Origin: Deltaproteobacteria bacterium
Lineage (GTDB): Bacteria > Bdellovibrionota > Bdellovibrionia > Bdellovibrionales > JAMPXM01
NCBI GenBank assembly: GCA_017302795.1
Contig: JAFLCB010000002.1
Span: forward strand, 372,001 to 436,000
Direction of reading: 5' to 3'
DNA length: 64,000 bases
Under the pieces are notes generated by a model. That model saw only the letters and a list, made by a program, of their open reading frames with translations, made no database searches and was not told the origin of the DNA. Position 1 is the first letter of the stretch, and every line of letters begins with the position of its first letter. This document shows positions 3,492 to 45,644 of this stretch, one piece after another. The position numbers and the translations under genes were made by a program.

Positions 3492-4526
3492 ATGGCGCAA
3501 CAGAAGAAGTTCAAAAATCAGAAACCGATTGATACAGATGAAGTAGTGGATCTCAATCCTGATGACTTGCCGGACGATGAGTCGGTGACCGTCACCAACA
3601 CGCTAGACAATCCTGACGAGTCCGAGAAAACGGTTATTTCGGCCGGCGCCACTATGAATCGCCGAATTGCGGAGGCTACAAAGACTCCACCCTCGATCAT
3701 GATGCTTGAGGGCCCAGCGGGCTACGTTGGGAAGCAATGGCCTATCGAGAAAAATGAGTTGATTATTGGTCGATCGATGACCTCGCAAGTTTTCGTCGAT
3801 GACAAGTCTGTTTCACGTTCGCACACGAAAATTATTTTGAAAGACAATGACGTTTACGTCATGGATCTCGAGTCATCGAACAAAACGGTTGTCAACGACG
3901 AAGCAATTCCTCCGATGACGGCAATGAAGTTGAAAGACAACGACACAATTAAGACCGGTAACGTGCTCTTCAAGTATCGAGAGCGTGGAAGTTTGGAAGC
4001 GCATGCGCATGAACGGCTTCAGGAAAAATCGGAACGCGATCCACTGACTGGCGCGTATAATAAAGGTGCCCTTGCACAGCGCGGCCAGGAAGCTTTTAAG
4101 CGCGCGAAGCTTTTGAAAGTTCCAATTTCAATTGCCGTGTTTGACATCGACTTCTTCAAAAAAATCAATGATGACCCAAATTTCGGTCACCCAGGCGGCG
4201 ACTACGTTTTGAAAGATCTTGTAAAGGTTATTTCTACGAAGCTCATTCGCGCGGATGACTTCTTGGCAAGATACGGCGGGGAAGAGTTTGTCGTTATTCT
4301 GTTCGGCTCGAACCTACAACAGGCGGTCGAAATCGGTGAACGGTTACGGCTTACCATCGAGTCGCATACGTTCGTTTACAACGGGCACACCATTCCAGTG
4401 ACGATCTCAGTTGGCGTTGCGGCAAAGCAGCCAGAAATGTCAACATGGGAAGAGCTTTTCGCGGTTGCCGACACGGCTGTTTACGCTTCTAAACGCACCG
4501 GCCGAAACCGCGTCACTTCGGCTTGA
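3492..4526 (+). CDS. dgcB: FHA-GGDEF diguanylate cyclase, DgcB-like
   Basis: Makes cyclic-di-GMP from two GTP. An acidic, disordered tail (1-70) is followed by an FHA domain (about 75-160) with the phospho-threonine-binding residues IIGRS (91-95), SRSH (108-111) and SSN (128-130). The GGDEF domain (about 180-340) has RDPLTGAYN, FDIDFFKKIND, an intact GGEEF active loop (262-266) and the inhibitory RxxD site (R253-D256) five residues before it, so product feedback is expected. In Bdellovibrio bacteriovorus an FHA-GGDEF protein, DgcB, is required for prey invasion and its FHA domain binds its own phosphorylated N-terminal tail. The same arrangement here suggests an orthologue; Thr47 in EKTVIS is a candidate phosphosite (inference). 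Start at ATG 3492. Confidence 0.9.
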   Translation: MAQQKKFKNQKPIDTDEVVDLNPDDLPDDESVTVTNTLDNPDESEKTVISAGATMNRRIAEATKTPPSIMMLEGPAGYVGKQWPIEKNELIIGRSMTSQVFVDDKSVSRSHTKIILKDNDVYVMDLESSNKTVVNDEAIPPMTAMKLKDNDTIKTGNVLFKYRERGSLEAHAHERLQEKSERDPLTGAYNKGALAQRGQEAFKRAKLLKVPISIAVFDIDFFKKINDDPNFGHPGGDYVLKDLVKVISTKLIRADDFLARYGGEEFVVILFGSNLQQAVEIGERLRLTIESHTFVYNGHTIPVTISVGVAAKQPEMSTWEELFAVADTAVYASKRTGRNRVTSA

Positions 4527-31710: not shown

Positions 31711-31772
31711 CAATGGGTTAACCTAGGGTCACACTGTTGACGTAGGTATCTGTTCGGAAGGTGGGAGTCTTC

Positions 31773-32528
31773 ATGCGTCGATTTTTTTCTCGCGCAGCGG
31801 CTATAGTTTTATTTTTGCTCGCAAATCTGGCGAATCCAGAAGTGGGGCAATCCGAGGTGATTCAGTTTCCCTCCGAAGAGTTGGCGACCGAATCTGTATT
31901 ACCAGTATTCGACCAGCCAGCAGTTGTTCGTAATCGCGTGGTCGAGTTAGCGAAGCGTTTTGAATTCGGTATACTAATGGGCTACGCACTGACGGAGCCA
32001 TTTTATAATCCACTTCAGCTAGGAGCGACGTTTTCCTATCACATCAATGAAGAACACGGAATTAACATCTTCGGGACCACGTTCTTGGAAGGTCTGTCGG
32101 GCGAAGCCGCGCAGTTGAATCCCATCCCTAACTCCAGTCCCCCAGTAAACGCCAATCTCCAGTATGGGCCCTCGCCCAAGTACTTAGTGATCGGCAGCTG
32201 GCAGTATTCCGCTTATTACGGAAAGCTTTCTTTCACCAAAGACTATGTGATGAATCTCCATTTGTATGGTTTAGCGGGAATCGGAATGTACGGGTTAGGT
32301 GACGCCTCGAAACCGGTGCTTGCGGTGGGGCTTGGACAGAAGTTTCATTTTTCACCGTCACTTTCTTTGCGATTTGATCTTCGGGCAATGACTTACATGG
32401 GGCCGGATCCGACTTCGATCCGACTGGATAATAAAACAGGGCCTCAACCTACCAGCGCGTTCGAGGACAAATTGATGCTCGAGGGGCTTTTGAATGTGGG
32501 TTTGAGCTACATGCTTCCCAGCTTGTGA
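31773..32528 (+). CDS. Outer-membrane beta-barrel protein, Glt-operon type (first)
   Basis: A signal peptide (RAAAIVLFLLANLANPEVGQ) and about 225 residues of alternating strands (FEFGILMGYALTEPFYNP, LGATFSYHINEEHGINIF, LSLRFDLRAMTYMGP, with the C-terminus VGLSYMLPSL). It belongs to the outer-membrane beta-barrel group found in Myxococcus glt/nfs and Bdellovibrio loci (GltA/GltB-like), from the fold and the neighbours. ATG 31773, five bases after GGAG. First gene of the operon; overlaps the next region by a GTGATG junction. Confidence 0.78.
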   Translation: MRRFFSRAAAIVLFLLANLANPEVGQSEVIQFPSEELATESVLPVFDQPAVVRNRVVELAKRFEFGILMGYALTEPFYNPLQLGATFSYHINEEHGINIFGTTFLEGLSGEAAQLNPIPNSSPPVNANLQYGPSPKYLVIGSWQYSAYYGKLSFTKDYVMNLHLYGLAGIGMYGLGDASKPVLAVGLGQKFHFSPSLSLRFDLRAMTYMGPDPTSIRLDNKTGPQPTSAFEDKLMLEGLLNVGLSYMLPSL

Positions 32529-32554
32529 TGTTCGACTTTGAAAGGCGTCTAGTG

Positions 32555-33418
32555 ATGAATGAGTTAGTTTTTAGAATTTTACTTCTTGTGCCATCTATCG
32601 TGTTGGCGATGACATTTCATTCTCAATTCGCTTTTGCTCAAGCAACGTTTAGCGATGTTCAGCCAGACGAAGTCATGTCGTCAGTGCCGGGTGAAATGGA
32701 TGCGATTGAACAACTGTATGCGGAAGACCCAGGAAAAAAAACCACCGAAATTATAGAAGACGGAAAACCAAAACAGATCACAGGGCCCAAGTCTGACACT
32801 GAAATCAAAGGTGTATCTGACCTGTCTTCGCTGTCTGAATTCAAAGATATCGCCGTTATTCAAAAGCGGTTCCTGCCGAAAACGCAGCGGTTTGAAGGCT
32901 TCGGTGGAATCAACGGTATTCTCAACGACAAGTTTTTTACCAGTGTCGGTGTCAACGGGCGACTTGGTTACCACTTCACAGAGCGTCTTGGAGTTGAGCT
33001 ACTCGTCATGGTTCTGGCGACTGGTGAACGCGATGTGACCAAAAGTCTTCGTCAGGAGCGAGGTGTCGTAACAACGAACTTTGTTTCTCCGCAAAATTAT
33101 TATGGAGCGGACATACGTTGGACACCGGTGTACGGGAAGATGTCATTTTTGAATAGCAAGATCACAACCTTTGACCTGTATTTTTCGGGCGGCGCCGGAA
33201 TCACAAACACCAATCAGGGCGGATCAGAGCCAACTATTCACTTTGGAACTGGGCAGGTCTTCGCGATCACGAAGTCGGCAGCCTTCCGATGGGATTTTTC
33301 TTGGAACTTCTATAATGCCAAATCCGGTGTCGCGGGTGCGCAGCAAAACTCTCTCTATAACAATCTTTTCCTGACCTTGGGCGCGAGCTTCTTCTTTCCG
33401 GAGGCAACATACAGATGA
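32555..33418 (+). CDS. Outer-membrane beta-barrel protein, Glt-operon type (second)
   Basis: A paralogue-like second barrel. The signal peptide ends near FAFAQA. An acidic, Pro/Ser-containing periplasmic-looking stretch (to about 105) precedes strands RFEGFGGINGILNDKFF, GRLGYHFTERLGVELLVM, FDLYFSGGAGITNTNQGG and a C-terminal LTLGASFFFPEATYR. The barrel domain matches the first protein in style. ATG 32555 is chosen for the signal peptide and AAAGG upstream; ATG 32528 is possible. Overlaps the TPR gene by 4 bases. Confidence 0.78.
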   Translation: MNELVFRILLLVPSIVLAMTFHSQFAFAQATFSDVQPDEVMSSVPGEMDAIEQLYAEDPGKKTTEIIEDGKPKQITGPKSDTEIKGVSDLSSLSEFKDIAVIQKRFLPKTQRFEGFGGINGILNDKFFTSVGVNGRLGYHFTERLGVELLVMVLATGERDVTKSLRQERGVVTTNFVSPQNYYGADIRWTPVYGKMSFLNSKITTFDLYFSGGAGITNTNQGGSEPTIHFGTGQVFAITKSAAFRWDFSWNFYNAKSGVAGAQQNSLYNNLFLTLGASFFFPEATYR

Positions 33419-35316
33419 GAAAACCAAAAATGTTGATACGCTATGTGCTTGCCGCAAGTACCGCCCTCGGCCCGCTAACGGTTGTAGCGCCAATGAATGT
33501 TCAAGCTGCTGTAAGTCCGATTGCTGGCCCGGCCAGTCTTGGACTTGATTCTGTTCAAGGGAAATCTGCTGATCAAGTGGAAACCATTCTCGCGATTCTG
33601 GGCGATCTCGATCGGCTTTCAGCGCTTGAGCCAAGTTTCGGAGAAATAGAAGAAGCCTCAAGCGAATCTACTCTCGAAGATGAGCTTATAGAAGTCGTGG
33701 CGCAAGCCGGACAGAAAAAAAGAACCTCAAAGAAAAAGTCGACACAGACAAAATCAGGAAAGGCATCGGCCCCTGGGCGGGCAGGGACACAGGCGCCGCG
33801 CCGAGTAGCGGATCCTCGTGCGGCGATGATCAAGCGGGAAGAGGACCGCGGCCGACAAGCGGTGCGACGCGGAGACTATTTTGAGGCATCAAAAATCTTC
33901 TTTGGTCTTTTAGAAAAAGAGAAAAATCCACTTCGACTCTTGCAAATCCGCTTCATTCTTGGCCGCACGCTTCAAGAGCTGAAGCTTCACCAAGTGTCCG
34001 CGTTTCCCTATTACGAGATCATTAGGTCTGAAGGTAAAACGAATCCAAAAAATAAATATGTTCGCCAGTCGTTGGAGCGTCTAACTGTCGCTGCGGATCA
34101 ACTGGAAAGCGACATTCTTCTCAATTACGCTGTGAAACAAATTAATGAGGAAGACTTTCCGGCCTCCAATCGGGATATGCTGTTCTTCCGACGGGGTGAG
34201 GTGAGATCGAGGGACGGCGACTTCGTCGAAGCGGCAAAAGAGTTCAACCGAGTCCGGAGCACTTCGATTTTCTACAACCGCGCTCGTTATCAAATTGCTC
34301 TGTCCCTGGTCGAGGCCGGTCAGTTAGAAAAAGCAGAGAATGTCTACGCCGCACTTGCGGAAGTTTCTTCCGATGCGGGAGTTACAAATAAAGTCCGGGT
34401 AAATGCAATGATGGGAAAGGCCCGGACACTTTATCAAAGAAAACTCTTTGCCGAGGCGATCGACTCTTACCGCGAAATTCCCCGAGACACTGAGCAATGG
34501 CACGATGCTTTGTTTGAATCGACGTGGGCGCTTCTGCAGGACGGTCGATTCCGCTCAGCCCTTTCAAACTTTCACTCGTTGCACTCTCCTTTTTATGATG
34601 ACTTTTATCAGCCAGAATCGCTTCTGTTGCGGGCGATTGTGTATCATTACATTTGTCGCTATGACGAAATGGAAACAACTTTGCGGCTCTTCGAGCGTGT
34701 CTATGGTCCTGTTAGCCGCGAACTGCGATCTACTCTGATGTCGACTTCGCCGAGTTCGGCAGTTTCGCTGTACAGAGAAGTTCGAAAGATCGATGAATCT
34801 TTCGAGGAACTCAAAAAAACCGCAAAGGCGAAACGGCAGTCGCAATCACAGGTTCCTTTTTTGGTAGCGAAGCAGGTATTGCGAGAAGGCGATGTGAGGA
34901 GAAATCTATCCTACATTCGAAACCTCGAAATGGAGCGAAAGAAAATTGATCAAGCTCCCGCGACTTGGCGAGAATCGCGAGTTGGCCGGTACGCACGGCG
35001 AGTGGTCGAGCGCCGGATCGATGCGACTCAAGCCGCCACTGGTCGCTTGATCAGACGTCACCTCGAACGCATTCAGGTGGAACTTTCGGGACACTTTGAG
35101 CAATCGAGTTTGATTCGTCTGGATATGCTTTCGGGTAAAAAAGAATCCGTGAAAAAGGAAATTGTCGGCAAAGGTCTACTTCGAGACACAGTCGACGATC
35201 AGCAAGATCGAAACTTCTATATCCAGAATGGTTATGATTTTTGGCCCTTCAAAGGCGAGTACTGGTTGGACGAAATCGGCAACTACCATTACCTCGGTGT
35301 AAAGGCGTGCGAGTGA
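33415..35316 (+). CDS. TPR-repeat exported protein (GltC-like)
   Basis: An exported protein of 633 residues. Signal peptide (VLAASTALGPLTVVAPMNVQ), a Lys/Ser/Thr-rich linker (about 100-135), then tetratricopeptide repeats (about 140-430), for example RGDYFEASKIFFGLLEKEK, DGDFVEAAKEFNRV and KLFAEAIDSYREIP. A long helical segment and a C-terminal WPFKGEYWLDEIGNYHYLGV follow. In Myxococcus the periplasmic TPR protein GltC sits with two barrel genes; order and domains agree. Assignment to GltC is by analogy. Confidence 0.8.
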   Translation: MRKPKMLIRYVLAASTALGPLTVVAPMNVQAAVSPIAGPASLGLDSVQGKSADQVETILAILGDLDRLSALEPSFGEIEEASSESTLEDELIEVVAQAGQKKRTSKKKSTQTKSGKASAPGRAGTQAPRRVADPRAAMIKREEDRGRQAVRRGDYFEASKIFFGLLEKEKNPLRLLQIRFILGRTLQELKLHQVSAFPYYEIIRSEGKTNPKNKYVRQSLERLTVAADQLESDILLNYAVKQINEEDFPASNRDMLFFRRGEVRSRDGDFVEAAKEFNRVRSTSIFYNRARYQIALSLVEAGQLEKAENVYAALAEVSSDAGVTNKVRVNAMMGKARTLYQRKLFAEAIDSYREIPRDTEQWHDALFESTWALLQDGRFRSALSNFHSLHSPFYDDFYQPESLLLRAIVYHYICRYDEMETTLRLFERVYGPVSRELRSTLMSTSPSSAVSLYREVRKIDESFEELKKTAKAKRQSQSQVPFLVAKQVLREGDVRRNLSYIRNLEMERKKIDQAPATWRESRVGRYARRVVERRIDATQAATGRLIRRHLERIQVELSGHFEQSSLIRLDMLSGKKESVKKEIVGKGLLRDTVDDQQDRNFYIQNGYDFWPFKGEYWLDEIGNYHYLGVKACE

Positions 35317-35318
35317 TC

Positions 35319-38300
35319 ATGAAGAACAAGTTTATATTCCTCTCTATTGGAACAGTGTCGCTACTCACTTTGTCGGCGGCGCACGGTTTGAATTCTCAGC
35401 CGGCTGTCGATCCAGGCACGCCGTCGATTCGCCAGGATGCAGCTAATGTAGGTAAGAAAAAGACCGCGAAGAAATCTCAGCTGGCAGCACCATCGGCTTC
35501 GAAAAACCAATCAGGCTCTAGGGCATCAATCGGTGGAAGTCTTAAGCGGTCTGCACTTCCCCAATCGCGCGCACTTCAAACTCCAGAGGCGACACGTACC
35601 CGGAGTATTGGCACTGTTAAGCCTCCGCGTTCCAATTCATTTTACGACGCAGGCACGAAGGAAGCAGAGTACGAAAAGCTTTTAGACCGAGAGATCAATG
35701 CTCTGTTTCGCGCGTCAATGAAGGCAAAGAAGAGTCCACAGCGTGGTGAGATTTGGTTAAGGTTGGCCGAGCGCTATGTAGAAAAGGCGCGCTTGGTCGA
35801 GTTTCGCATGCAAAATGAATACGACCAGGCTGTAAAAGCATTTGTCGAAAAGAAAACGAGGATTAAACCGCGCCTCGATACTAACAAAACTCGTGAGCAC
35901 AATAAAAAGGCGATTCAGCTTTACGACTGGTTCGTTCGCGACTTTCCAAACGATCCAAAAATCGATCAAGCGCTATTTTTCCTCGGCTACAATCATTTCG
36001 AAATGGGAAATACGAAGCAGGGTGAAGACTTTTATCGGCAGCTGGTCAGTCGATATCCCGAAAGCATTTATGTGACTGAATCGCATTTTGCGCTTGGCGA
36101 GTTCTATTTTGAAAATGAAGTATGGCGTCAGGCGTTTGATAACTATCAAAAGGTCATTCAGGCCAAGCGCGCACGCCTAGCTTCGTTTGCTTATTATAAA
36201 GCGGCGTGGTGCTTGTACCGCCTCAGTAAAACTACCGACGCACTAAAGTATCTCGAGCGGGTGATTCGAATGAGCAAAGCCGCAGATGCGGCCTCCAATG
36301 TCCCCGGCAGGAAGTCTATAAATCGCATTCGACTTGCCATTGAAGCTCTAAAGGACTACGTACCGTTCTACGCAGAAGTCGGCAATGTCGATCAAGCTTA
36401 CGACGACTTTGTTCGCGTTTCTGGCGACGAGCGCGCGGCGACACAGATGTTAGAAAAGTTGGCCTATCTCACCGCAGATCAAGGCAGTCGCCAAATTGCA
36501 GCGAAGCTGTTTAGACAATTGATAAGTTTCAACATAACTGGCGAGCGAGCGGCCGAATACCAGTATCAAATTGTTCTCACGTTCGCTACATCGGACGCGC
36601 GTGAGTTTCGTCGACAGTTAGAAATGTGGCTTGAAAACTTTGGCCCCGCTTCTTTATGGGCGCAAGAAAACAGGAAGAACCAGAAATTGGTAACGGACGT
36701 CGCCCGTCTTCAGGAAACCACTCTTCGAAATCATGTGTTGCAGTTGCATCAGACGGCACAAAATTCGAGAGCTCGATTTTCGCAAGAGGTCGCACACGGT
36801 GCCTACATGCTCTACGTGAAGCATTTCTCGGATTCGCCACAGATCGCAGAGATGCAGTTTTTCCATGCGGAACTGCTGTTTGACATGGGACGCTTTAACG
36901 ATGCAGCCAGGCTGTATGTTTACGCAGCCGACAAAGATACAAAAGGACAGTACAAAGAGCGCGCGCAGTTGAATGCCGTCTTGGCATTCGAAAAGATTTT
37001 ACCGTCCGATCAAGAGATCGAAGCACGTCGTGGAAAGTCGCTGGAAAAGATACAATTGGATCCTGCGGTCGAACAGTTTGTTCGCTCAGCGCAGCGCTAT
37101 ATCACCGCGTTTCCGAAAGGTGAAAAAGTCGGTGATATAGAGCGCCGGTTGGGTGTCATTTATTACAGCTACAACTATTTCGACGAAGCGATTCCGATCT
37201 TCGAGAAGACGCTGTATGGCGACCCAGCTTCAGCGAATGGGGAAATTGCCGGCAACTTGATTCTCGATATCTATAAACTGAAAGACGACATGATTGGTTT
37301 TGCCGATAAGGGCACCCAGTTTATGGCAAACCCGGCAATTATGAAGACAAAGTTTGGTCAGCAAGTAAGGCTTTTGATGGAAAAAGCCAACTACGCGAAA
37401 GCTGAAAAACTTGCAGCAACCGGGGATCACTCAAAAGCGGCGAAAGAGTTTGAAAACTTTGTCGGTATCACGAAGAGCGAGGATCTTGCCCTAGCCGCGA
37501 GATTCAAGGCAGCCGCGAGTTACGAGAAAGCTGGTGACCTTGCTGGGGCAGCGAAGAACTATCAGCTTGTGCTCGCCACACCAGGAAAAGATCCTAGAAC
37601 CAAGAGTCTTCATAACGACGCTCGCAACGCGCTTGCAAAAATCTACGAACAGACGGGGCAATTGGACCTGGCGGCAAAACAGTTTGCTGCCTATGCGGAT
37701 GCCAACTCGAAAGATCAGAAGGCCATCAACGGATTCTTTAACGCTGCAGTTATCTGGGATGGTCTTGGGAATACGCAAGAGGCGAGTTCTAATTACGAGC
37801 TTTACAGAAAATACTCGAAGCGAGCCGACCGGATCGACACCTATTTTTTAGAGGCAGAAATGTGGCAGCGCAGGAAGCTTGAAAAGCGCGCGGCGCAGTT
37901 CTTTAAGCTTTACCTCGACAGCGGGGGGCGCGATGAAGCGAAGCGAATCGAAGCGACATTCTTAATTGCTGATACTGATCGAAAAGCAGGGGCATTTACC
38001 AAGTCCATGAAGGGATACAGCTCGGTTCTGTATATGCATAAAAATGGCTCGCCTCTGGTGCGAGAAGCGACCGTTAAGTATCTTGCGGAGGCTAGGTTTG
38101 AAATTGCTCAGCCACTGAAAAACGATCTGGCGGCAATTCGCTTCGGTACAAGTGATAAATCACAGGGTGCGGCTGCGGCGCAGGTCCAAGCAGGAATTAA
38201 GAAGTATCTCGAGGCGATGAAAGAGATTATTCGTCTTGATTACGGTCCGATGATTGTTGCTGCCTTGGCGAGTACCGGGCAAGTGTACGACTTGGTCGCG

Positions 38301-38567
38301 CAGAAGTTCGAAAAAATTCCGACACCGTCTGGATTGGCCGGCGAAGATGCAAAAAAATATCGCGAATTGATCCAAGTCGAGGTGGTGCGATTTAAAAATG
38401 AAGCGAAGACCTCTTATCAGGCCGCCGTAGACAGATCGTTAGAATTTGAGACCTATGGTCCGTGGACCAAAGCAGCGCGGATTGGTCTGTCAGCCTACGA
38501 TGCGAAATTTAACGACGCGGGCGATCTTGCAGTTGATGTCAACGCTGGCGATTGGATGGGGCTATGA
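35319..38567 (+). CDS. Large TPR-repeat exported protein (GltD-like)
   Basis: A 1082-residue exported protein. Signal peptide (FIFLSIGTVSLLTLSAAHG), a low-complexity linker (20-105), then at least a dozen TPR-type helix pairs across the rest: FFLGYNHFEMGNTKQGEDF, AWCLYRLSKTTDALKYLERV, LGVIYYSYNYFDEAIPIFEK, and AASYEKAGDLAGAAKNYQLV. Length and position match the giant TPR protein (GltD/PglI-like) of gliding loci, a periplasmic scaffold linking motor and outer-membrane parts. ATG 35319 overlaps nothing and follows the previous stop by two bases. Confidence 0.8.
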   Translation: MKNKFIFLSIGTVSLLTLSAAHGLNSQPAVDPGTPSIRQDAANVGKKKTAKKSQLAAPSASKNQSGSRASIGGSLKRSALPQSRALQTPEATRTRSIGTVKPPRSNSFYDAGTKEAEYEKLLDREINALFRASMKAKKSPQRGEIWLRLAERYVEKARLVEFRMQNEYDQAVKAFVEKKTRIKPRLDTNKTREHNKKAIQLYDWFVRDFPNDPKIDQALFFLGYNHFEMGNTKQGEDFYRQLVSRYPESIYVTESHFALGEFYFENEVWRQAFDNYQKVIQAKRARLASFAYYKAAWCLYRLSKTTDALKYLERVIRMSKAADAASNVPGRKSINRIRLAIEALKDYVPFYAEVGNVDQAYDDFVRVSGDERAATQMLEKLAYLTADQGSRQIAAKLFRQLISFNITGERAAEYQYQIVLTFATSDAREFRRQLEMWLENFGPASLWAQENRKNQKLVTDVARLQETTLRNHVLQLHQTAQNSRARFSQEVAHGAYMLYVKHFSDSPQIAEMQFFHAELLFDMGRFNDAARLYVYAADKDTKGQYKERAQLNAVLAFEKILPSDQEIEARRGKSLEKIQLDPAVEQFVRSAQRYITAFPKGEKVGDIERRLGVIYYSYNYFDEAIPIFEKTLYGDPASANGEIAGNLILDIYKLKDDMIGFADKGTQFMANPAIMKTKFGQQVRLLMEKANYAKAEKLAATGDHSKAAKEFENFVGITKSEDLALAARFKAAASYEKAGDLAGAAKNYQLVLATPGKDPRTKSLHNDARNALAKIYEQTGQLDLAAKQFAAYADANSKDQKAINGFFNAAVIWDGLGNTQEASSNYELYRKYSKRADRIDTYFLEAEMWQRRKLEKRAAQFFKLYLDSGGRDEAKRIEATFLIADTDRKAGAFTKSMKGYSSVLYMHKNGSPLVREATVKYLAEARFEIAQPLKNDLAAIRFGTSDKSQGAAAAQVQAGIKKYLEAMKEIIRLDYGPMIVAALASTGQVYDLVAQKFEKIPTPSGLAGEDAKKYRELIQVEVVRFKNEAKTSYQAAVDRSLEFETYGPWTKAARIGLSAYDAKFNDAGDLAVDVNAGDWMGL

Positions 38568-39451
38568 TCGTCATATCAAAAAAATCTGGAACTGGTTGGA
38601 AATTGAAACTGTCGACAAGTGTACTCGTCGGCGTGGTCGCCGCAGCTTGCTCGTCCGGTCCGAAACCAGAGCCGGTGGTAACTGGTGCAGGTCCAAAAGC
38701 CGGAAGCACCGTGCCTCTACCGGTAGGCGCCGGCAAAGACGGCGAATCGGGTGGCGCCTCTGTGACGGGTGCTGGCATTCAGAAGTACGCGAACCTGTCG
38801 GAAGCACTTCGAGGAAGTAAAACGTTGAACGTTCAAGACGAGGCAGCGCGAATTTTAGTCGCGAATCCGGAGGATGTGGTCGCTTTGAATGCGCTAGCGA
38901 TGTGGAACTACCGACAGAAGAAAATTGGCGCCGCAAAACTTTTGTTGGCGCGAGCAATTGAAAAAGGTCAGCCAAACGCTTCGATTCACAACAACTACGG
39001 GTTGATGTTGTTGTCAGAGGGCGACGAACTGGCTGCGGCCGAACATTTCAAGAAAGCACTTCGACTGGACGAAGGTCATGCGGAAGCGAATGCCAATCTC
39101 GGTTCGCATTACGCAAAGGGCGGCGACTGGAAAAAAGCATTGCCGCGCCTAGAGCGGGCATGGACAGCGGGCCGTCAGGATTCCTCCATCGCCAACAACT
39201 ATGCACTAAGCTTGAAAGGCGAAGGCGATCACGAGAAAGCTCGCCAGGTATTTGAAGATGCGGCCAAACGTAACAATAAAGATCCGATCTTACTTCTCAA
39301 CTATGCAAGCTTGTTGATTGAAACAATGAACAGGCCCAAGGAAGGGCTACCGCTTGTTTACCGAGTAAAGTTCCTTGAGACTGAGAGGAAGGATGTGTTG
39401 AACCGTGCAAACGTGTTGGAACGCAAGGCGAGTGGCACATCGACACCATAG
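38564..39451 (+). CDS. TPR lipoprotein (GltE/AglT-like)
   Basis: A lipoprotein signal (LKLSTSVLVGVVAAACSSG, lipobox AAAC) and a Pro/Gly linker precede TPR units: ALAMWNYRQKKIGAAKLLLA, NYGLMLLSEGDELAAAEHFK, ANLGSHYAKGGDWKKALPRL, NYALSLKGEGDHEKARQVFE. Matches the outer-membrane TPR lipoprotein AglT/GltE of Myxococcus and Bdellovibrio gliding loci by domain and position. ATG 38564 overlaps the previous stop (ATGA). Confidence 0.8.
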   Translation: MIVISKKSGTGWKLKLSTSVLVGVVAAACSSGPKPEPVVTGAGPKAGSTVPLPVGAGKDGESGGASVTGAGIQKYANLSEALRGSKTLNVQDEAARILVANPEDVVALNALAMWNYRQKKIGAAKLLLARAIEKGQPNASIHNNYGLMLLSEGDELAAAEHFKKALRLDEGHAEANANLGSHYAKGGDWKKALPRLERAWTAGRQDSSIANNYALSLKGEGDHEKARQVFEDAAKRNNKDPILLLNYASLLIETMNRPKEGLPLVYRVKFLETERKDVLNRANVLERKASGTSTP

Positions 39452-39470
39452 ATTGTTTGAGGCAGGCAGC

Positions 39471-39815
39471 GTGTTGAATTTCATCTTGAGCTTAAAGATT
39501 CGGTCTAAAAGTTTTTCGCTGGCGCTTGTTGGTGTGGCAGTTCTTTTGATGATCCCATCGGCGTTCGCTCAAGAAAACTCAGGAGCTGCAACGGGGAAAA
39601 AAGGTCAGAAGCGCACGACGATCAACTTTGAAGATCAGCTGATCGAAGGCAGAACGCAAAAGCCCGAGCTTATTGTTTTGCTCCAGAATCGAATGAACAA
39701 CTCTCGTCGACTTTTCAAACTCCGGGAAAACTTTCTTCCTGAAATGCGGAAGACGTCAGAGGATGTCGGGCGCGCCGAATCGAATGCGCGCGGAAGTGCG
39801 GAGCCAGCGAAATGA
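39471..39815 (+). CDS. Small exported protein (GltF-like)
   Basis: A 114-residue protein with a signal peptide (FSLALVGVAVLLMIPSAFA) and a conserved-looking core INFEDQLIEGRTQKPELIVL followed by LLQNRMNNSRRLFKLREN. A short gene of this type lies between the TPR lipoprotein and the FHA-TonB gene in gliding clusters, suggesting a GltF-like periplasmic adaptor. GTG 39471 is chosen because GAGGCAGG precedes it and the signal peptide starts there. Overlaps the next gene by 4 bases. Confidence 0.72.
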   Translation: MLNFILSLKIRSKSFSLALVGVAVLLMIPSAFAQENSGAATGKKGQKRTTINFEDQLIEGRTQKPELIVLLQNRMNNSRRLFKLRENFLPEMRKTSEDVGRAESNARGSAEPAK

Positions 39816-41956
39816 GTTCGCCCATAAAGCAGCCAATAGTTCTTCGCGTACACAAAAACGGCGCTCTCGTAGGGGTGAAGCAGTTTTTGGATAACCAAAT
39901 CGTTATGGGGCGTCAGAGCGACCTTCAGCTACCGCTCGAAGGCGATTCGGTTGCGGTTATTCATTGTGCGATTGAGAACAGAGATGGCGCTTGGTTTATC
40001 GCCGACCTCGGATCTGAATCAGGAACAAAAAAGAATCAAGAGACGATTTTGGATTCGGCGATTCAATCTGGCGACACGATTGAAGTTGGTGAGTATAAAA
40101 TTGAATTTTTCATTGGAATTCCAAAGCCCAAAGCGCCGCCCGTTGAAACTGCCGTACCTTCGGTAACGACACCTCCGCCCTCGACGCCTTTAATGGTCTC
40201 AACACCTCCGCTTACGCGTGCTCCTTTGTTCCCTCCGCTTGGGACCAACTCCAGAGAACAAGCTGTAGTCCCAGAATCAAGGCCAGCAAAACCGGCCGAG
40301 TTTTCGAGGCCCATTGATCGCCCGACTGTCGATATTATTTCTGGATCTGGAAATTTAGAGACTGTTGCCGCGCGACCGATTCGAGCTTCGGTTCGCCCTC
40401 ACGGTCATAAGAAAAAGGGGCGCAAAACATTTGCGCCTCCAAGTCGCTATCAGAACGTCAAAGAGTTTGTAAAGCCAACCAAGGGCTCTGTCGTTGAAGT
40501 GATGGTCGCGTGGCGCGAGCGAGTGATTGCTACCTACTCCTTTTCAGAAAAAAAGATTGTCACCATTGGAAGCAAGCCGTCTTGCGATGTGCCCGTTCCG
40601 GTTATGGGTTCACGCCTGCGGTCAGCTCCCATTGTTAAAGTAGATCAACCTGCAACGGTTTTCATTCTGCCTGAGTCCACCGGCGAACTTGTTCGCGGTC
40701 AAAATTCTCAGCCGTTTTCCGAACTCAGTCGCACTGGGAGAATCGGGCGAAGCGGCGAACTTTCGACGTTAGTTCTTGAGCAAGGCGAGCTTGTCAAAAT
40801 GGATGTTGGTGAAGGTATTTCCATCATCATCCGTTACGTTAGTGAAGCCCCAAAGCCTCTGATGGCGCCTCTTTTCGATTTAACAACGAGTGAAATCACT
40901 GGCGTCGTGTTGGCAATGGCGCTGGTCGCCGTTCTTAGTCTCTATATGTACCTTTATTCGCCGACCAAGGAGCTTCCGCCAGAAGCAGGTCTCGATGAAC
41001 CACTTCGAACTGCAGTGATGCTGGTAAAGCCAACTCCGATCCCCCCTCCCTTGCCGCCGGTTGAGCAAACAAAGGTCGTCGAAATTCCCGCGACCCCGGT
41101 TCCAACTCCGCCACCGCAAGTGGTTCGTTCGACGCCTTCTCCGGTAAAAACGGAAATAAAGCAAAAGCAAACACAGGCACAAGTTTTAACTCAAGTTAAA
41201 ACGAATCCTGGGCAGGCGGCGAACGCGGCTGCGAACAAAAACAAAACCGGACCGCGCACTCAAACATCTGTGAAGCAAGGCGGAGCGATAAAAACGACCG
41301 ACCAAAAAGCTTCTCAGATGCAGTCGAAACCAAAGGACGTTTCCAAAGCGGGCATTTTTTCGACTTTCGGCGGCGGCGGCGCGCAAAATACCCTCGCGGG
41401 TTCGACAACGGGTTCGGGAGAACTAGCAGGCCTGTCGGCGTCAGCCACTGGTCGAAGTGGCTTCAACGAAAATCGAACCGGTGAAGGTTTAGGTTCTGCA
41501 ACCAAAGATACGGGCCAAGGTGGGACCGGAAAGTCCTTAGAGGGAATAGTCGGCGGAATCAAAACCGAAGGACGTGGCGGCGGAAATGCCGGCTATGGCA
41601 CTGGTGGGCTTGGTGGCCGGGTTGGCGTAAAAGTAATTCCGGGCGGCGAAGGCGAAGCGTTTTCTGGAACGATTGATCGCGAGGCAATTCGCCGAGTTAT
41701 TTTGGCAAACTACCGGGTGATTAAAACTTGCTATGAAAAGGAACTCAATCGAACGCCTGATCTAGTGGGTAAACTAGTTATCGAGTGGGACATCGGTGAG
41801 AAGGGCGCAGTTTTACGCACAGCTGTTCAGCGCAATGAGTTGGGCAATAAGGCGGTGGCAGATTGTTTGATGGGCCGATTGAGAATGTGGAGATTTCCGG
41901 AACCGCCGACGAACGAAGTAGTCACCGTCGCGTATCCGTTTGTTTTTTCGAATTAA
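39812..41956 (+). CDS. FHA-TonB transducer protein (GltG-like)
   Basis: An N-terminal FHA domain (about 25-100: VMGRQSDLQL, DLGSESGTKK) whose usual SxxH loop is altered to VAVIHC. A Pro-rich linker and a second FHA-like segment follow (about 230-345, VTIGSKPSCDVPV). One membrane helix (about 364-383, VLAMALVAVLSLYMYLY) leads to a long Pro/Lys/Gln/Gly-rich periplasmic arm, then a TonB/AgmX-type C-terminal domain (about 620-714: DREAIRRVILANYRVIKTCY, LRMWRFPEPP). This is the layout of Myxococcus GltG/AgnA, which couples the AglRQS proton channel to the envelope complex. ATG 39812. Confidence 0.85.
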   Translation: MSSPIKQPIVLRVHKNGALVGVKQFLDNQIVMGRQSDLQLPLEGDSVAVIHCAIENRDGAWFIADLGSESGTKKNQETILDSAIQSGDTIEVGEYKIEFFIGIPKPKAPPVETAVPSVTTPPPSTPLMVSTPPLTRAPLFPPLGTNSREQAVVPESRPAKPAEFSRPIDRPTVDIISGSGNLETVAARPIRASVRPHGHKKKGRKTFAPPSRYQNVKEFVKPTKGSVVEVMVAWRERVIATYSFSEKKIVTIGSKPSCDVPVPVMGSRLRSAPIVKVDQPATVFILPESTGELVRGQNSQPFSELSRTGRIGRSGELSTLVLEQGELVKMDVGEGISIIIRYVSEAPKPLMAPLFDLTTSEITGVVLAMALVAVLSLYMYLYSPTKELPPEAGLDEPLRTAVMLVKPTPIPPPLPPVEQTKVVEIPATPVPTPPPQVVRSTPSPVKTEIKQKQTQAQVLTQVKTNPGQAANAAANKNKTGPRTQTSVKQGGAIKTTDQKASQMQSKPKDVSKAGIFSTFGGGGAQNTLAGSTTGSGELAGLSASATGRSGFNENRTGEGLGSATKDTGQGGTGKSLEGIVGGIKTEGRGGGNAGYGTGGLGGRVGVKVIPGGEGEAFSGTIDREAIRRVILANYRVIKTCYEKELNRTPDLVGKLVIEWDIGEKGAVLRTAVQRNELGNKAVADCLMGRLRMWRFPEPPTNEVVTVAYPFVFSN

Positions 41957-41987: not shown

Positions 41988-42680
41988 GTGGAACCGACAT
42001 CAACAGCCGCCGCAATGGATGCAGCAATGGCTTACGAATCAGGAAACTTTTTTATTACGGCATTCAAGGTCGGTGGACCTGCAATGATAGTCATTGCGGC
42101 GATCGGCGCATTGACGATTATGCTGTTGATCGAACGCATGTGGGCGCTGAAAGGATTGAGCGTTGATAAAAATGATTTCAACGAACATCTTTTTGGGATG
42201 GTTCTTCGCGGCGATATTCGTCAGGCGATTACTTACTGTGACTCGAAGTCGGCTCCGCTGACGAACACTCTGAAGGCTGGCCTAATCCAAGTTATGAACC
42301 AAAGACCAGACGAAGAGATTCAAGTAGCGATGGATGCGGCGGTCCTTCGGGAAACACCGCGCATCGAGGGATGGGCTGCGTTCTTAGCCGTCTTCGGTAA
42401 CTTGGCGACATTGGTCGGTCTCGTCGGAACGATCATGGGTATGATCAAGTCCTTCGCAGGTGTTTCGAAGGCGGGAGCTGCCGAAAAGGCGCAGCTGCTT
42501 TCAGAGGGTATTTCCGAAGCCCTCCACTGTACAGCAGCGGGTCTTATGGTCGCGGTCATAGCGATCCTCGCTTATGGGTATTTCCAGGTTAGAATCGGTC
42601 GCATCATCAACGACATGCAGGAGTCCAGCATGTCGATGATGAATCTCGTCGTCGCAAATCGCGATAAAGTGAAAGAGTAA
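41988..42680 (+). CDS. MotA/TolQ/ExbB proton-channel protein (AglR-like)
   Basis: Inner-membrane proton channel subunit, 230 residues, three membrane helices (about 27-47, 125-150, 175-200). The TolQ/ExbB core is visible: MNQRPDEEIQVAMDAAVLRE, GNLATLVGLVGTIMGMIKSF, and EGISEALHCTAAGLMVAVIA. With two TolR/ExbD proteins downstream it would form the motor of the gliding-type complex (AglRQS in Myxococcus). GTG start at 41988, preceded by AGGGGGAAATA. Confidence 0.9.
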   Translation: MEPTSTAAAMDAAMAYESGNFFITAFKVGGPAMIVIAAIGALTIMLLIERMWALKGLSVDKNDFNEHLFGMVLRGDIRQAITYCDSKSAPLTNTLKAGLIQVMNQRPDEEIQVAMDAAVLRETPRIEGWAAFLAVFGNLATLVGLVGTIMGMIKSFAGVSKAGAAEKAQLLSEGISEALHCTAAGLMVAVIAILAYGYFQVRIGRIINDMQESSMSMMNLVVANRDKVKE

Positions 42681-42689
42681 AAGACGGCT

Positions 42690-43163
42690 ATGGCACAAAC
42701 CGAAGGTCGAAACAGTAGCGGTCGCAACGCGAATACAGAAGTGAACCTGATTCCGTTCATCGATTTGATGAGCGTTCTGATCACATTTCTTCTGATCACA
42801 GCTGTTTGGACCCAAGTTTCAATGATCCAGCTAGGAAGTTCGATCTACGGAAAGAAGACCTCTGATCAAATCACTCCTCCTCCGCCAATTGCTGATATTC
42901 CCCTCCGGCTAGACGTGAAGGATTTCGGATTTAGATTGATCGTCGGGCAAGATAAGTACACGTTCGAAAAGAAAAATGGTGAGTGGGTCACCGAGGAGCT
43001 AAACGAGCGATTAGCGGTCGTTCGCCAAATGTATCCGGATAAAGCAGATGCGACGATCACCGTCGATAACGAAGTTCCCTATGAAAAACTGATTTTGGGA
43101 ATGGATGCACTTTTGAAGGGCAGCTTTATCTCGATCAGTATCGCGACAGTTGAGTCCGAATAG
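42690..43163 (+). CDS. ExbD/TolR-family protein (AglS/AglQ-like), first
   Basis: A 157-residue bitopic stator subunit. The membrane helix (about 20-42) carries the protonatable aspartate in PFIDLMSVLITFLLIT. The periplasmic part includes VTEELNERLAVVRQMYPDKA and TITVDNEVPYEKLILGMDAL, typical of ExbD. ATG 42690. The second ExbD gene follows 19 bases after the stop. Confidence 0.9.
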   Translation: MAQTEGRNSSGRNANTEVNLIPFIDLMSVLITFLLITAVWTQVSMIQLGSSIYGKKTSDQITPPPPIADIPLRLDVKDFGFRLIVGQDKYTFEKKNGEWVTEELNERLAVVRQMYPDKADATITVDNEVPYEKLILGMDALLKGSFISISIATVESE

Positions 43164-43182
43164 AAAAGAGCAGGATTTACTT

Positions 43183-43767
43183 ATGGCTATATTTGTTCCA
43201 GGTCTTCGCGACCGACACCAGCGTCCGCTTAGCGGCAAAGGAGCTCGCAACATCGTTGCGATGTTATCTTTGACTGCGATGGTCGATATGTTCACTGTTC
43301 TCGCAGTATTCCTTTTGCAGAACTATCAGACAACGGGTGACGTAATAGAGCTATCTGATGAAGTTGTACTTCCTAAGGCGGCAAAGGTTCGTGAGTTGAA
43401 GCCTGCGACTGTTGTTGTGATCTCGAAAGGAAAAATACTCGTCGACAAACTTCAAGTTGCGACGATCGACGAAGTGAAAGCGATCGAAGAAGTGACTGTT
43501 CTGCCAAATCTTCAAGCAAGAGTTCAGGATGCCTTTCGGATACTTGAGGAAAGAAATCGTGTTGCAGGCTTGTCGCAGATCAGACAAGCAGTCAGTCAAG
43601 GGCGCGGCGAAGACCCGGCGCGTCCAGAAGATTTTCGTCGAGTAACAGTGCAAGCCGACCGTGTGATCGACGCAGGAACTGTGAAAAAAGTGATGTACAC
43701 GCTGACGGAAGCAGGAGCTTCGGAAATCAATTTCGCTGTTCTTCGCGATGATTCTCGCGTTCAGTAG
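43183..43767 (+). CDS. ExbD/TolR-family protein (AglS/AglQ-like), second
   Basis: A 194-residue stator subunit with the conserved aspartate in LTAMVDMFTVLAVFLLQNY (about 26-46) and an extended periplasmic part (GKILVDKLQVATIDEVKAIE, RRVTVQADRVIDAGTVKKVM). Two different TolR/ExbD proteins with one TolQ/ExbB is the AglRQS pattern. ATG 43183 follows AGGA by 7 bases; an upstream in-frame GTG at 43150 lies inside the previous gene. Confidence 0.9.
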   Translation: MAIFVPGLRDRHQRPLSGKGARNIVAMLSLTAMVDMFTVLAVFLLQNYQTTGDVIELSDEVVLPKAAKVRELKPATVVVISKGKILVDKLQVATIDEVKAIEEVTVLPNLQARVQDAFRILEERNRVAGLSQIRQAVSQGRGEDPARPEDFRRVTVQADRVIDAGTVKKVMYTLTEAGASEINFAVLRDDSRVQ

Positions 43768-43775
43768 CTGAAAAG

Positions 43776-44486
43776 TTAAGCTGCGATAGGCTCTTCATCG
43801 TGAAAGCGGCGAATGTGCTCGGTGATGATGGCTTTGTTCTCGGCAGTGATATCTAAAAACTTCACTCCAGCATCACCTGTCCGAGAAACATAAATTATTT
43901 CTCCAAGCGCGTGAACAGTAGAGGGAAACTCTCGGCTTTTGATGGAAATTTGGACTTTGTCGCCGCGGTTTAAGGCGCCCGCATTTTTAACACCGAATCC
44001 GCCGATACTTACCGTCAGCGCCTGAAGAACTTGCGCCGCCATACTGCTGCCGACCGCTGTTAGAGCAACTTGTCCAAGAAGCGGTGCGCGGGGGTTTTCT
44101 CGTCGACTGATTCCCACGAGATCCATAACTTCCGGAACTTCGAAAAGTGGAAGCCATTTTACCAGTCCGGTACCCCAAAGCGTGACGATATCCCAGCGAT
44201 TTAGGCCGCGGAGGTGGTCAGCCAATTCGCCTTGGGTCAGCGGTCCAATCGGATGTCCTGAACCTGAATCGCAGTACCATACCCGACTGTCAGAGGATTT
44301 TTGAATTGCTTGAATTTTAATAGAAATAGATTTCCACTCTGAAATCGGCGACCACTCGTTGGTTCCTCTTGCCCAAATAAGGCATTCGGGCCCTAGGGAT
44401 CCGGATTCAATATTTTTCTCTACTTCATCGGCGGAAAACGGACCCAGAACCGCCCCATCTCGATGAACAAACCACGAAGTCTTCAT
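43776..44486 (-). CDS. GYF-GYF-PilZ protein, candidate c-di-GMP receptor
   Basis: A 236-residue soluble protein with three modules. First GYF (about 3-50): WFVHRDGAVLGPFSADEVEK and LIWARGTNEWSPISEW. Second GYF (about 68-115): WYCDSGSGHPIGPLTQGELA and VTLWGTGLVKWLPLFE. PilZ domain (about 125-232): the RxxxR arginines in RRENPRAPLLG, then TVSIGGFGV, where the usual D of DxSxxG is T, and GDAGVKFLDI. GYF modules bind proline-rich peptides, and the neighbouring gliding operon encodes proline-rich FHA-TonB protein; Myxococcus GltJ also carries a GYF module. A role in c-di-GMP control of the motor is inferred. ATG 44486; converges on the operon end. Confidence 0.85.
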   Translation of the reverse strand: MKTSWFVHRDGAVLGPFSADEVEKNIESGSLGPECLIWARGTNEWSPISEWKSISIKIQAIQKSSDSRVWYCDSGSGHPIGPLTQGELADHLRGLNRWDIVTLWGTGLVKWLPLFEVPEVMDLVGISRRENPRAPLLGQVALTAVGSSMAAQVLQALTVSIGGFGVKNAGALNRGDKVQISIKSREFPSTVHALGEIIYVSRTGDAGVKFLDITAENKAIITEHIRRFHDEEPIAA

Positions 44487-44543
44487 AGTGACGCTATCGG
44501 CTGAAACTGAGTTTTTCTTAAGGATGTGTTAGTCTGGCCTTCA

Positions 44544-45644
44544 ATGAGACAGTCCTTGCTCGATATTCTTCGGTCCGCCTTTCACCGCCGCAACCTCGTA
44601 ATTTCGTCGCTGCTATTTCTGATTGTCGTTATTCAGCTCGTAGTTTTAATGCCTCGGGACCTCGATCTTCGTGAACTTGATCCCGACAAAAGTCGAGCGG
44701 TAAAGGCCGGCCGCAAAAAGCAGGTTCCGAAAGAAACAACGGCGAGTCTAGGCACATCCATCACGGATCTTGCTACCCAAGGCGCAGGCGGTCAAATTCT
44801 GCGCGGAGTACATTCGATTGAAGTCAATTCGGACGGGAAGGGCTGGGAACTCTGGGCTGATCGCGGGGTTCGACCGAAGGACTCTGGTGAGTGGAAAATT
44901 GAAACTGTCAGAGTGAAATTTTACGCTTCGAACGGGGTCACTTACAATGTGACCGGTCGTACCGGTGGCGTGAACCCGGCGACCTATGATTTGTGGATCA
45001 AGGGAAACGTTGAAACAAAGTCATCAAATGGGTACATCTTCAAATCACCAAGCGTGGTGTATAATTCTAAGCTGAAAAAGCTGACGTCTTCCGAAGCGGT
45101 AGAAATGATCGGACCAACCGACTCCGAGGGAAGTCGCCTCGAATTGAGCGGTGAAGACATGTTTGCAGATTTGAACTCCAACGAAATAAGAGTGAACCGC
45201 AAAGTTCAAGCGAAGAAGCGCGTGCATGGCGAAAAAACAGCGCAAATTCAATCTACGGCAGCGCAGTTTTCTGGAGCAACAAATCTTGCTGCTTTTACTG
45301 GTGGAGTTACAATTGATGTCGAAACCATGCGCATAACCGGGCCCGAGGCCAAATTCACATATGATTCGAAACGCAACGCGCTGGAATCACTGATGGTGGC
45401 AGGCGGAGTGAAAGTAACCGATTCCGACAAGTTCGCAACGAGCGGCTCTCTTTCCGTTTACTTTAAAGATGATCGCTACATTTTTAAAGGGTCGCCTCGA
45501 GTTGTGCAAAATGAAGATGAATTGATAGGCGATGAAATTGTTTTTCTTCAAGGCGGAAAGCAAGTGCAGGTCATAAACGCGAAGGCTCAAGTTGATCCAG
45601 CTCGTGCAACCGGAACTCCGCGACCGGATAGGAGGGTTCCATGA
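44544..45644 (+). CDS. Fused LptC-LptA lipopolysaccharide-export protein
   Basis: The N-terminal membrane helix (about 20-38, [18 protein letters not shown]) is followed by a periplasmic LptC-type beta-jellyroll (about 85-220: [52 protein letters not shown]). A second OstA/LptA-like module follows (about 225-350: [51 protein letters not shown]). Normally these are two genes, lptC and lptA. LptB follows by a 4-base overlap, which supports the call. ATG 44544 chosen; GTG 44526 is possible. Confidence 0.8.

Follow-up and report, generated by a model that had tools for sequence, protein, structure and literature searches.

GYF-PilZ proteins beside two Glt-type motor operons suggest a route for a second messenger to the motor

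Two separate clades of GYF-PilZ proteins are linked, across the class, with two separate motor operons. The member in the window (the 64,000-nucleotide stretch of DNA analysed here), GGP1, has an association with Glt-type motors much broader than this single window shows. The placement of these proteins beside or inside two motor operons suggests that they are a route by which a second messenger reaches Glt-type motors. We give slightly better than even credence to GGP1 being a soluble regulator that acts from the cytosol on an envelope motor of the Glt/Agl type, with cyclic-dinucleotide sensing by its PilZ domain and contacts to the motor platform through its GYF modules.

GGP1 is a true gene of the regulator type. 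An open reading frame on the minus strand, encoding 236 aa, has exactly the limits that the earlier note gave, 43776-44486. Its features are as follows.

43776..44486, minus strand: GGP1, GYF-GYF-PilZ protein, 236 aa (ORF call, Pfam, AlphaFold)
44334..44474, minus strand: GYF module 1, residues 5-51, resembling the GYF of Myxococcus GltJ/AgmX (Pfam, NCBIfam, PDB)
44136..44279, minus strand: GYF module 2, approximately residues 70-117 (second Pfam stretch, conserved residues, AlphaFold)
43812..44105, minus strand: PilZ domain, residues 128-225 (Pfam, Foldseek)
44088..44102, minus strand: RxxxR motif, R129-R133 (family alignment)
43998..44015, minus strand: altered DxSxxG motif, T158-V-S160-I-G-G163 (family alignment)

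Two GYF modules followed by a PilZ domain had been read from the sequence, with an HMM search proposed as a check; the search matched both domains above the curated cut-offs. GYF_2 was found in two stretches, the best at residues 5-51 (Pfam, E = 1.7e-15; 57 bits, cut-off 25.8), and PilZ at residues 128-225 (Pfam, E = 5.8e-8; 33.4 bits, cut-off 22.5). The GYF model matched the GGP1 site at 4.8e-11 in a genome-wide search and matched 0 of 14 control genomes. The residues of the GYF core (G15, P16, W38 and W45) are invariant, the second module has the conserved residues W70, G81-P82, W104 and W111, and in the AlphaFold model its strands and helix follow the same pattern as those of the first. The AlphaFold2 model (42-sequence alignment; mean pLDDT 92.1, pTM 0.59) is confident for the domains and not for their relative placement. 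The proposed kinship with the GltJ GYF domain also held: residues 3-53 match NCBIfam gliding_GltJ (NF033761, 8.6e-8) over the GYF part of that model, and the nearest solved GYF structure by sequence profile is the Myxococcus AgmX/GltJ GYF domain (7z3c, 3.6e-7). For the PilZ domain, the nearest solved structure by sequence profile is that of Alg44, and the best Foldseek match of GGP1 is the Alg44 PilZ domain with c-di-GMP (2e-7), with MotI, a Bacillus motility inhibitor, and YcgR among the best fold matches. A PHROGs search gave no match, and a single-protein scan with GGP1 returned only three named relatives, all from uncultured Bdellovibrionota.

The gene lies tail to tail with the last gene of the neighbouring operon, the GGP1 stop being 8 bp from the end of ExbD2.

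31761..33418, plus strand: two outer-membrane beta-barrel proteins (OMP_myx_plus, GltA/GltB type; NCBIfam TIGR04565, 3.9e-24 and 4.5e-35)
33415..35316, plus strand: GltC-like TPR protein (NCBIfam gliding_GltC, 6.1e-51)
35241..38567, plus strand: large TPR protein of the operon (annotation of the motor operon)
38552..39451, plus strand: GltE-like TPR protein (NCBIfam gliding_GltE, 2.9e-14, among general TPR matches)
39405..39815, plus strand: CglF-like protein (NCBIfam gliding_CglF, 7e-9)
39812..41956, plus strand: GltG/PglI-like protein (NCBIfam GltG, 6.1e-76, below the equivalog cut-off; myxo_SS_tail, 9.8e-29; AlphaFold)
41988..42680, plus strand: ExbB/MotA-like protein, AglR-type (Pfam MotA_ExbB, 6.3e-29)
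42690..43163, plus strand: ExbD1, AglQ/AglS-like (Pfam ExbD, 4.3e-14)
43150..43767, plus strand: ExbD2, AglQ/AglS-like, last gene of the operon (Pfam ExbD, 3.4e-9)
44526..45644, plus strand: LptC-LptA fusion (LptCA), divergent from GGP1 (Pfam, synteny)

Homologues of GltC, GltE, GltG, CglF and the AglRQS-type proteins stand together in one operon beside GGP1, and the convergent gliding-motor operon recognized from the letters is Glt/Agl-like by curated models. Since the gliding models matched below their Myxococcus equivalog cut-offs, the products are homologues rather than strict equivalogs. The FHA-TonB protein said to be encoded next door does belong to this operon, but three motor genes intervene; it is GltG-like, without a TonB_C match, and its tail is an AgmX/PglI C-terminal domain. 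Beyond the LptC-LptA fusion come genes for LptB, RpoN and an RNase Y-like protein. GGP1 thereby lies antisense between two plus-strand gene blocks (window 43767-44526), with a gap of ~40-60 bp to the LptCA start. This antisense layout is kept across families and could allow transcriptional interference.

A 42-sequence GGP1 profile found matches, most of them full-length, in 139 of the 144 genomes of the class. Outside family f9, GGP1 was convergent with ExbD2 in 36/40 informative primary copies (convergence within ~8 kb, mostly ≤100 bp; two copies cut by contig ends and two loci representing second copies were omitted), and the arrangement was present in seven further families outside f9, one locus (L157) belonging to a different order of the class. 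In f9, apparently the family of Bdellovibrio, a proven glider, GGP1 was near the motor in 0/30 copies. The f9 label requires two changes on a FastTree tree, so that few GGP1 relocations are needed. In genera g58, g35, g65 and g66 the GltG-like gene is mostly kept and full-length GGP1 is absent; no GYF_2 domain was found in the small genomes of g58 (G117-G120), where the GltG-like gene is retained, which argues that GGP1 is an accessory regulator and not a core part. The tie to Glt/Agl loci that the earlier note looked for holds across families, with f9 as the exception. At one locus an apparently tandem-duplicated GGP1 of 413 aa, with three GYF and two PilZ matches, sits at the Glt/Lpt boundary (L102:9096-10337), and at another a 934-aa ORF with GGP1-like pieces, possibly a fusion, adjoins LptCA (L159:5199-8003).

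The genome that supplied the window has two more GYF-GYF-PilZ genes besides GGP1, at the following loci.

L024:8004-12327 (own genome C2, 58-62 kb): second Glt-like motor operon, GGP2-ExbB-ExbD-ExbD-GltG, with GGP2 as its first gene
L025:7327-12394 (own genome C3, 302-307 kb): third GYF-GYF-PilZ gene, then genes for a VWA-like lipoprotein (assigned by reading the sequence, without a domain match) and a 1025-aa TPR protein, and a barrel

The second motor operon is near-universal in the class, and GGP1 and GGP2 are well separated both by profile score and by tree. When 40 loci were gathered by the second-system ExbB alone, to avoid bias, a GYF-PilZ gene (GGP2) lay within ~3 kb on the same strand in 37, usually directly upstream of ExbB; one of these loci comes from another order. 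With a few such genes in each genome, we estimate the probability of this linkage by chance at <1%. Homologues scattered without any link to Glt/Agl loci, which the earlier note held up as the case against its reading, are not what was found, either for GGP1 outside f9 or for its paralogue. At L109, motor genes of the L024 type and genes of the L025 type are joined in one cluster.

Part of this arrangement has a precedent. Hobley 2012 (PMC3271064) counts four gliding operons in Bdellovibrio, one of which has a PilZ gene, Bd1482, at its 5' end, and suggests it as a possible receiver of the signal of DgcA (Bd0367); in the available text Bd1482 is put forward only as a PilZ candidate, with no mention of GYF modules, of conservation throughout the class or of the GGP1 of the first system. 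From operon order, Bd1482 is probably the operon-borne GGP2 of the second system, and each of its likely equivalents in our set (L128, L133) shows PilZ with a single GYF match. The earlier note knew of no described protein with this order of domains. That stands in so far as the literature search returned no paper with both 'GYF domain' and 'PilZ domain' and none combining Bdellovibrio, PilZ and GYF (the 2024 GltJ switch and 2016 Bdellovibrio c-di-GMP network papers lay outside the search), but the PilZ gene at a gliding operon had been flagged in 2012. Neither a PilZ protein controlling a motor nor a PilZ gene at a Bdellovibrio gliding operon is new; the GYF-PilZ architecture and its conserved placement with two motors seem not to have been described in the literature searched. 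PlpA, PixA and PixB of M. xanthus are likewise PilZ proteins whose mutants have gliding defects; they differ from GGP1 in architecture, with no GYF module reported (PMC8316039). According to the available text of PMC3271064 and PMC9140294, gliding of B. bacteriovorus requires the GGDEF protein Bd0367. Lowry et al. 2022 (PMC9140294) showed that gliding depends on the cGAMP which Bd0367 makes, and that two gliding genes, bd1480 among them, have lower expression in its absence. No confirmed receptor taking this signal to the motor is named in the available text of the literature examined. A conserved GYF-PilZ protein beside two Glt-type motors throughout the class is a direct candidate receptor for the gliding signal.

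GltJ/AgmX of Myxococcus xanthus shares with GGP1 a homologous GYF module and an association with the Glt/Agl motor. Unlike GltJ, GGP1 is a separate soluble protein with two GYF modules and a PilZ domain, without a membrane helix or AgmX tail, and it scores 31.7 bits against the 450-bit cut-off of the GltJ equivalog model NF033761, over the GYF part only. No GltJ above the cut-off was found in the own genome, where no ORF combines GYF with an AgmX tail, and Bdellovibrio has been reported to lack GltJ (PMC3169522). With full-length GltJ absent, a separate protein probably provides the GYF modules in trans. Two loci, L026:6634-8076 and L027:6376-8511, encode GYF proteins that seem to have a transmembrane segment but lack an AgmX tail. 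Both GYF cores are intact in motor-abutting copies: the second G-P core is retained in 31/31 ExbD-abutting copies and 24/25 GGP2 proteins, and in 7/30 relocated f9 copies, 13/30 of which keep W104. As the f9 copies share ancestry, this decay of the second module with relocation is a correlation and not repeated evidence.

The mechanism we infer for GGP1, including its ligand, docking site and effect on the motor, would run as follows. The PilZ domain would sense a cyclic dinucleotide: c-di-GMP, or perhaps 3',3'-cGAMP in view of the change in the second motif. The two GYF modules would grip short stretches containing proline where the motor platform faces the cytosol; candidates are the GltG linker, the N-terminus of ExbD or, for the second system, the tail of ExbB. 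By analogy with YcgR and MotI on the flagellar stator, the messenger level might then alter assembly or activity of the motor. YcgR of enterobacteria and MotI/DgrA of Bacillus are similarly PilZ proteins whose target is a proton-channel motor, in their case flagellar MotA; their N-terminal domains are of the YcgR_N type rather than GYF modules. In Myxococcus the GYF module is part of GltJ itself. GGP1 would provide it in trans; if this is true, a GYF contact of the GltJ type can come from a separate protein and be combined with a nucleotide sensor.

In the earlier note, the dock for GGP1 was the proline-rich arm of the GltG-like protein, and docking would bring the motor under c-di-GMP control. 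The parts of that protein (AlphaFold) are these.

GltG-like protein: FHA domain, residues 9-101; linker, 102-225; beta domain, 227-343; transmembrane helix, 359-382; arm, 386-606; then the AgmX/PglI C-terminal domain
40115..40486, plus strand: cytosolic Pro-rich linker of the GltG-like protein, possible GYF docking site (24 Pro in 124 residues)

The model has low confidence outside the domains, and the topology is deduced from it. Because the TonB-like arm comes after the transmembrane helix, it would be periplasmic; among the proline-rich parts only the cytosolic linker would then be reachable for GGP1. This linker, disordered in the model and 19% Pro, keeps such docking conceivable, and a TFAPPS-like motif is widespread in GltG linkers. 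However, the motif is missing from some GGP1-linked GltG proteins (L085, L102), and the second-system GltG, whose operon does encode a GYF-PilZ protein, has almost no Pro-rich cytosolic linker. We therefore rejected linker docking as a general rule, and consider the version with c-di-GMP control doubtful as a whole. No single proline motif was common to both motor systems. The C-terminal Pro-Pro tail of the second-system ExbB was not adopted as a dock since it does not track GGP2 cleanly: it is present in ~33/48 of these proteins, the f1 family keeps GGP2 with an ExbB lacking the tail, and the three loci without GGP2 keep the tail. The ExbD2 N-terminus, conserved and PG-containing in sequence, is a candidate dock.

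Alternatively, GGP1 could belong to the LptCA-LptB(-RpoN) side and tune LPS export, its motor neighbour being merely positional. Its link to LptCA is as good as that to the motor: LptCA lies within ~400 bp of GGP1 in nearly all non-f9 loci, also at those without a nearby ExbD2 (L089, L108, L156). We nevertheless find this quite improbable, as the GGP2 clade sits in a motor operon without Lpt genes in the same 37 of 40 loci, the first GYF module of GGP1 resembles that of GltJ, and in most f9 loci examined LptCA still directly follows ExbD2 while GGP1 is elsewhere, apart from both. Another possibility is that the PilZ domain no longer binds nucleotide and GGP1 is a constitutive scaffold joining motor parts via its GYF modules. 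Here the second motif is what speaks for it: the D/N position of DxSxxG is S/T in most GGP1 proteins, with one D among 75, and E in 19/25 GGP2. Against it, R129, R133 and G163 are invariant in 100/100 family members and S160 is retained in 90/100, more than a dead site would need, and PixB PilZ domains without the second-motif Ser still bind c-di-GMP (PMC8316039). A scaffold of this kind is rather unlikely in our judgement, and regulation of the motor by a sensing PilZ domain is the reading we keep.

The RxxxR arginines and the T in place of D that the earlier note had seen are R129/R133 and T158. In the family alignment, the first cyclic-dinucleotide motif is intact and the second carries changes that are family-specific. 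Replacement of D by S/T was rejected as unique to the GYF-PilZ family, since other PilZ proteins of the own genome also vary at this position. With the second motif altered throughout the family, the c-di-GMP control supposed earlier is in doubt: binding of c-di-GMP becomes uncertain and 3',3'-cGAMP a candidate ligand. A bolder proposal casts the GYF-PilZ proteins as the missing gliding receptors for 3',3'-cGAMP, in which S/T for the guanine-reading D/N would admit adenine and cGAMP from a Bd0367-type enzyme would switch the Glt motor via the GYF contacts; we think it improbable. The own genome encodes a receiver-GGDEF protein (L188, C1:106663-107136) with NDGNDHLFGSYVL, having Ser at the hybrid-promiscuous position, like Bd0367. 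This one residue, at the presumed corresponding position, makes a cGAMP-making enzyme plausible there. A GGDEF domain also lies in the same window as GGP1, at 4035-4511 (L189).
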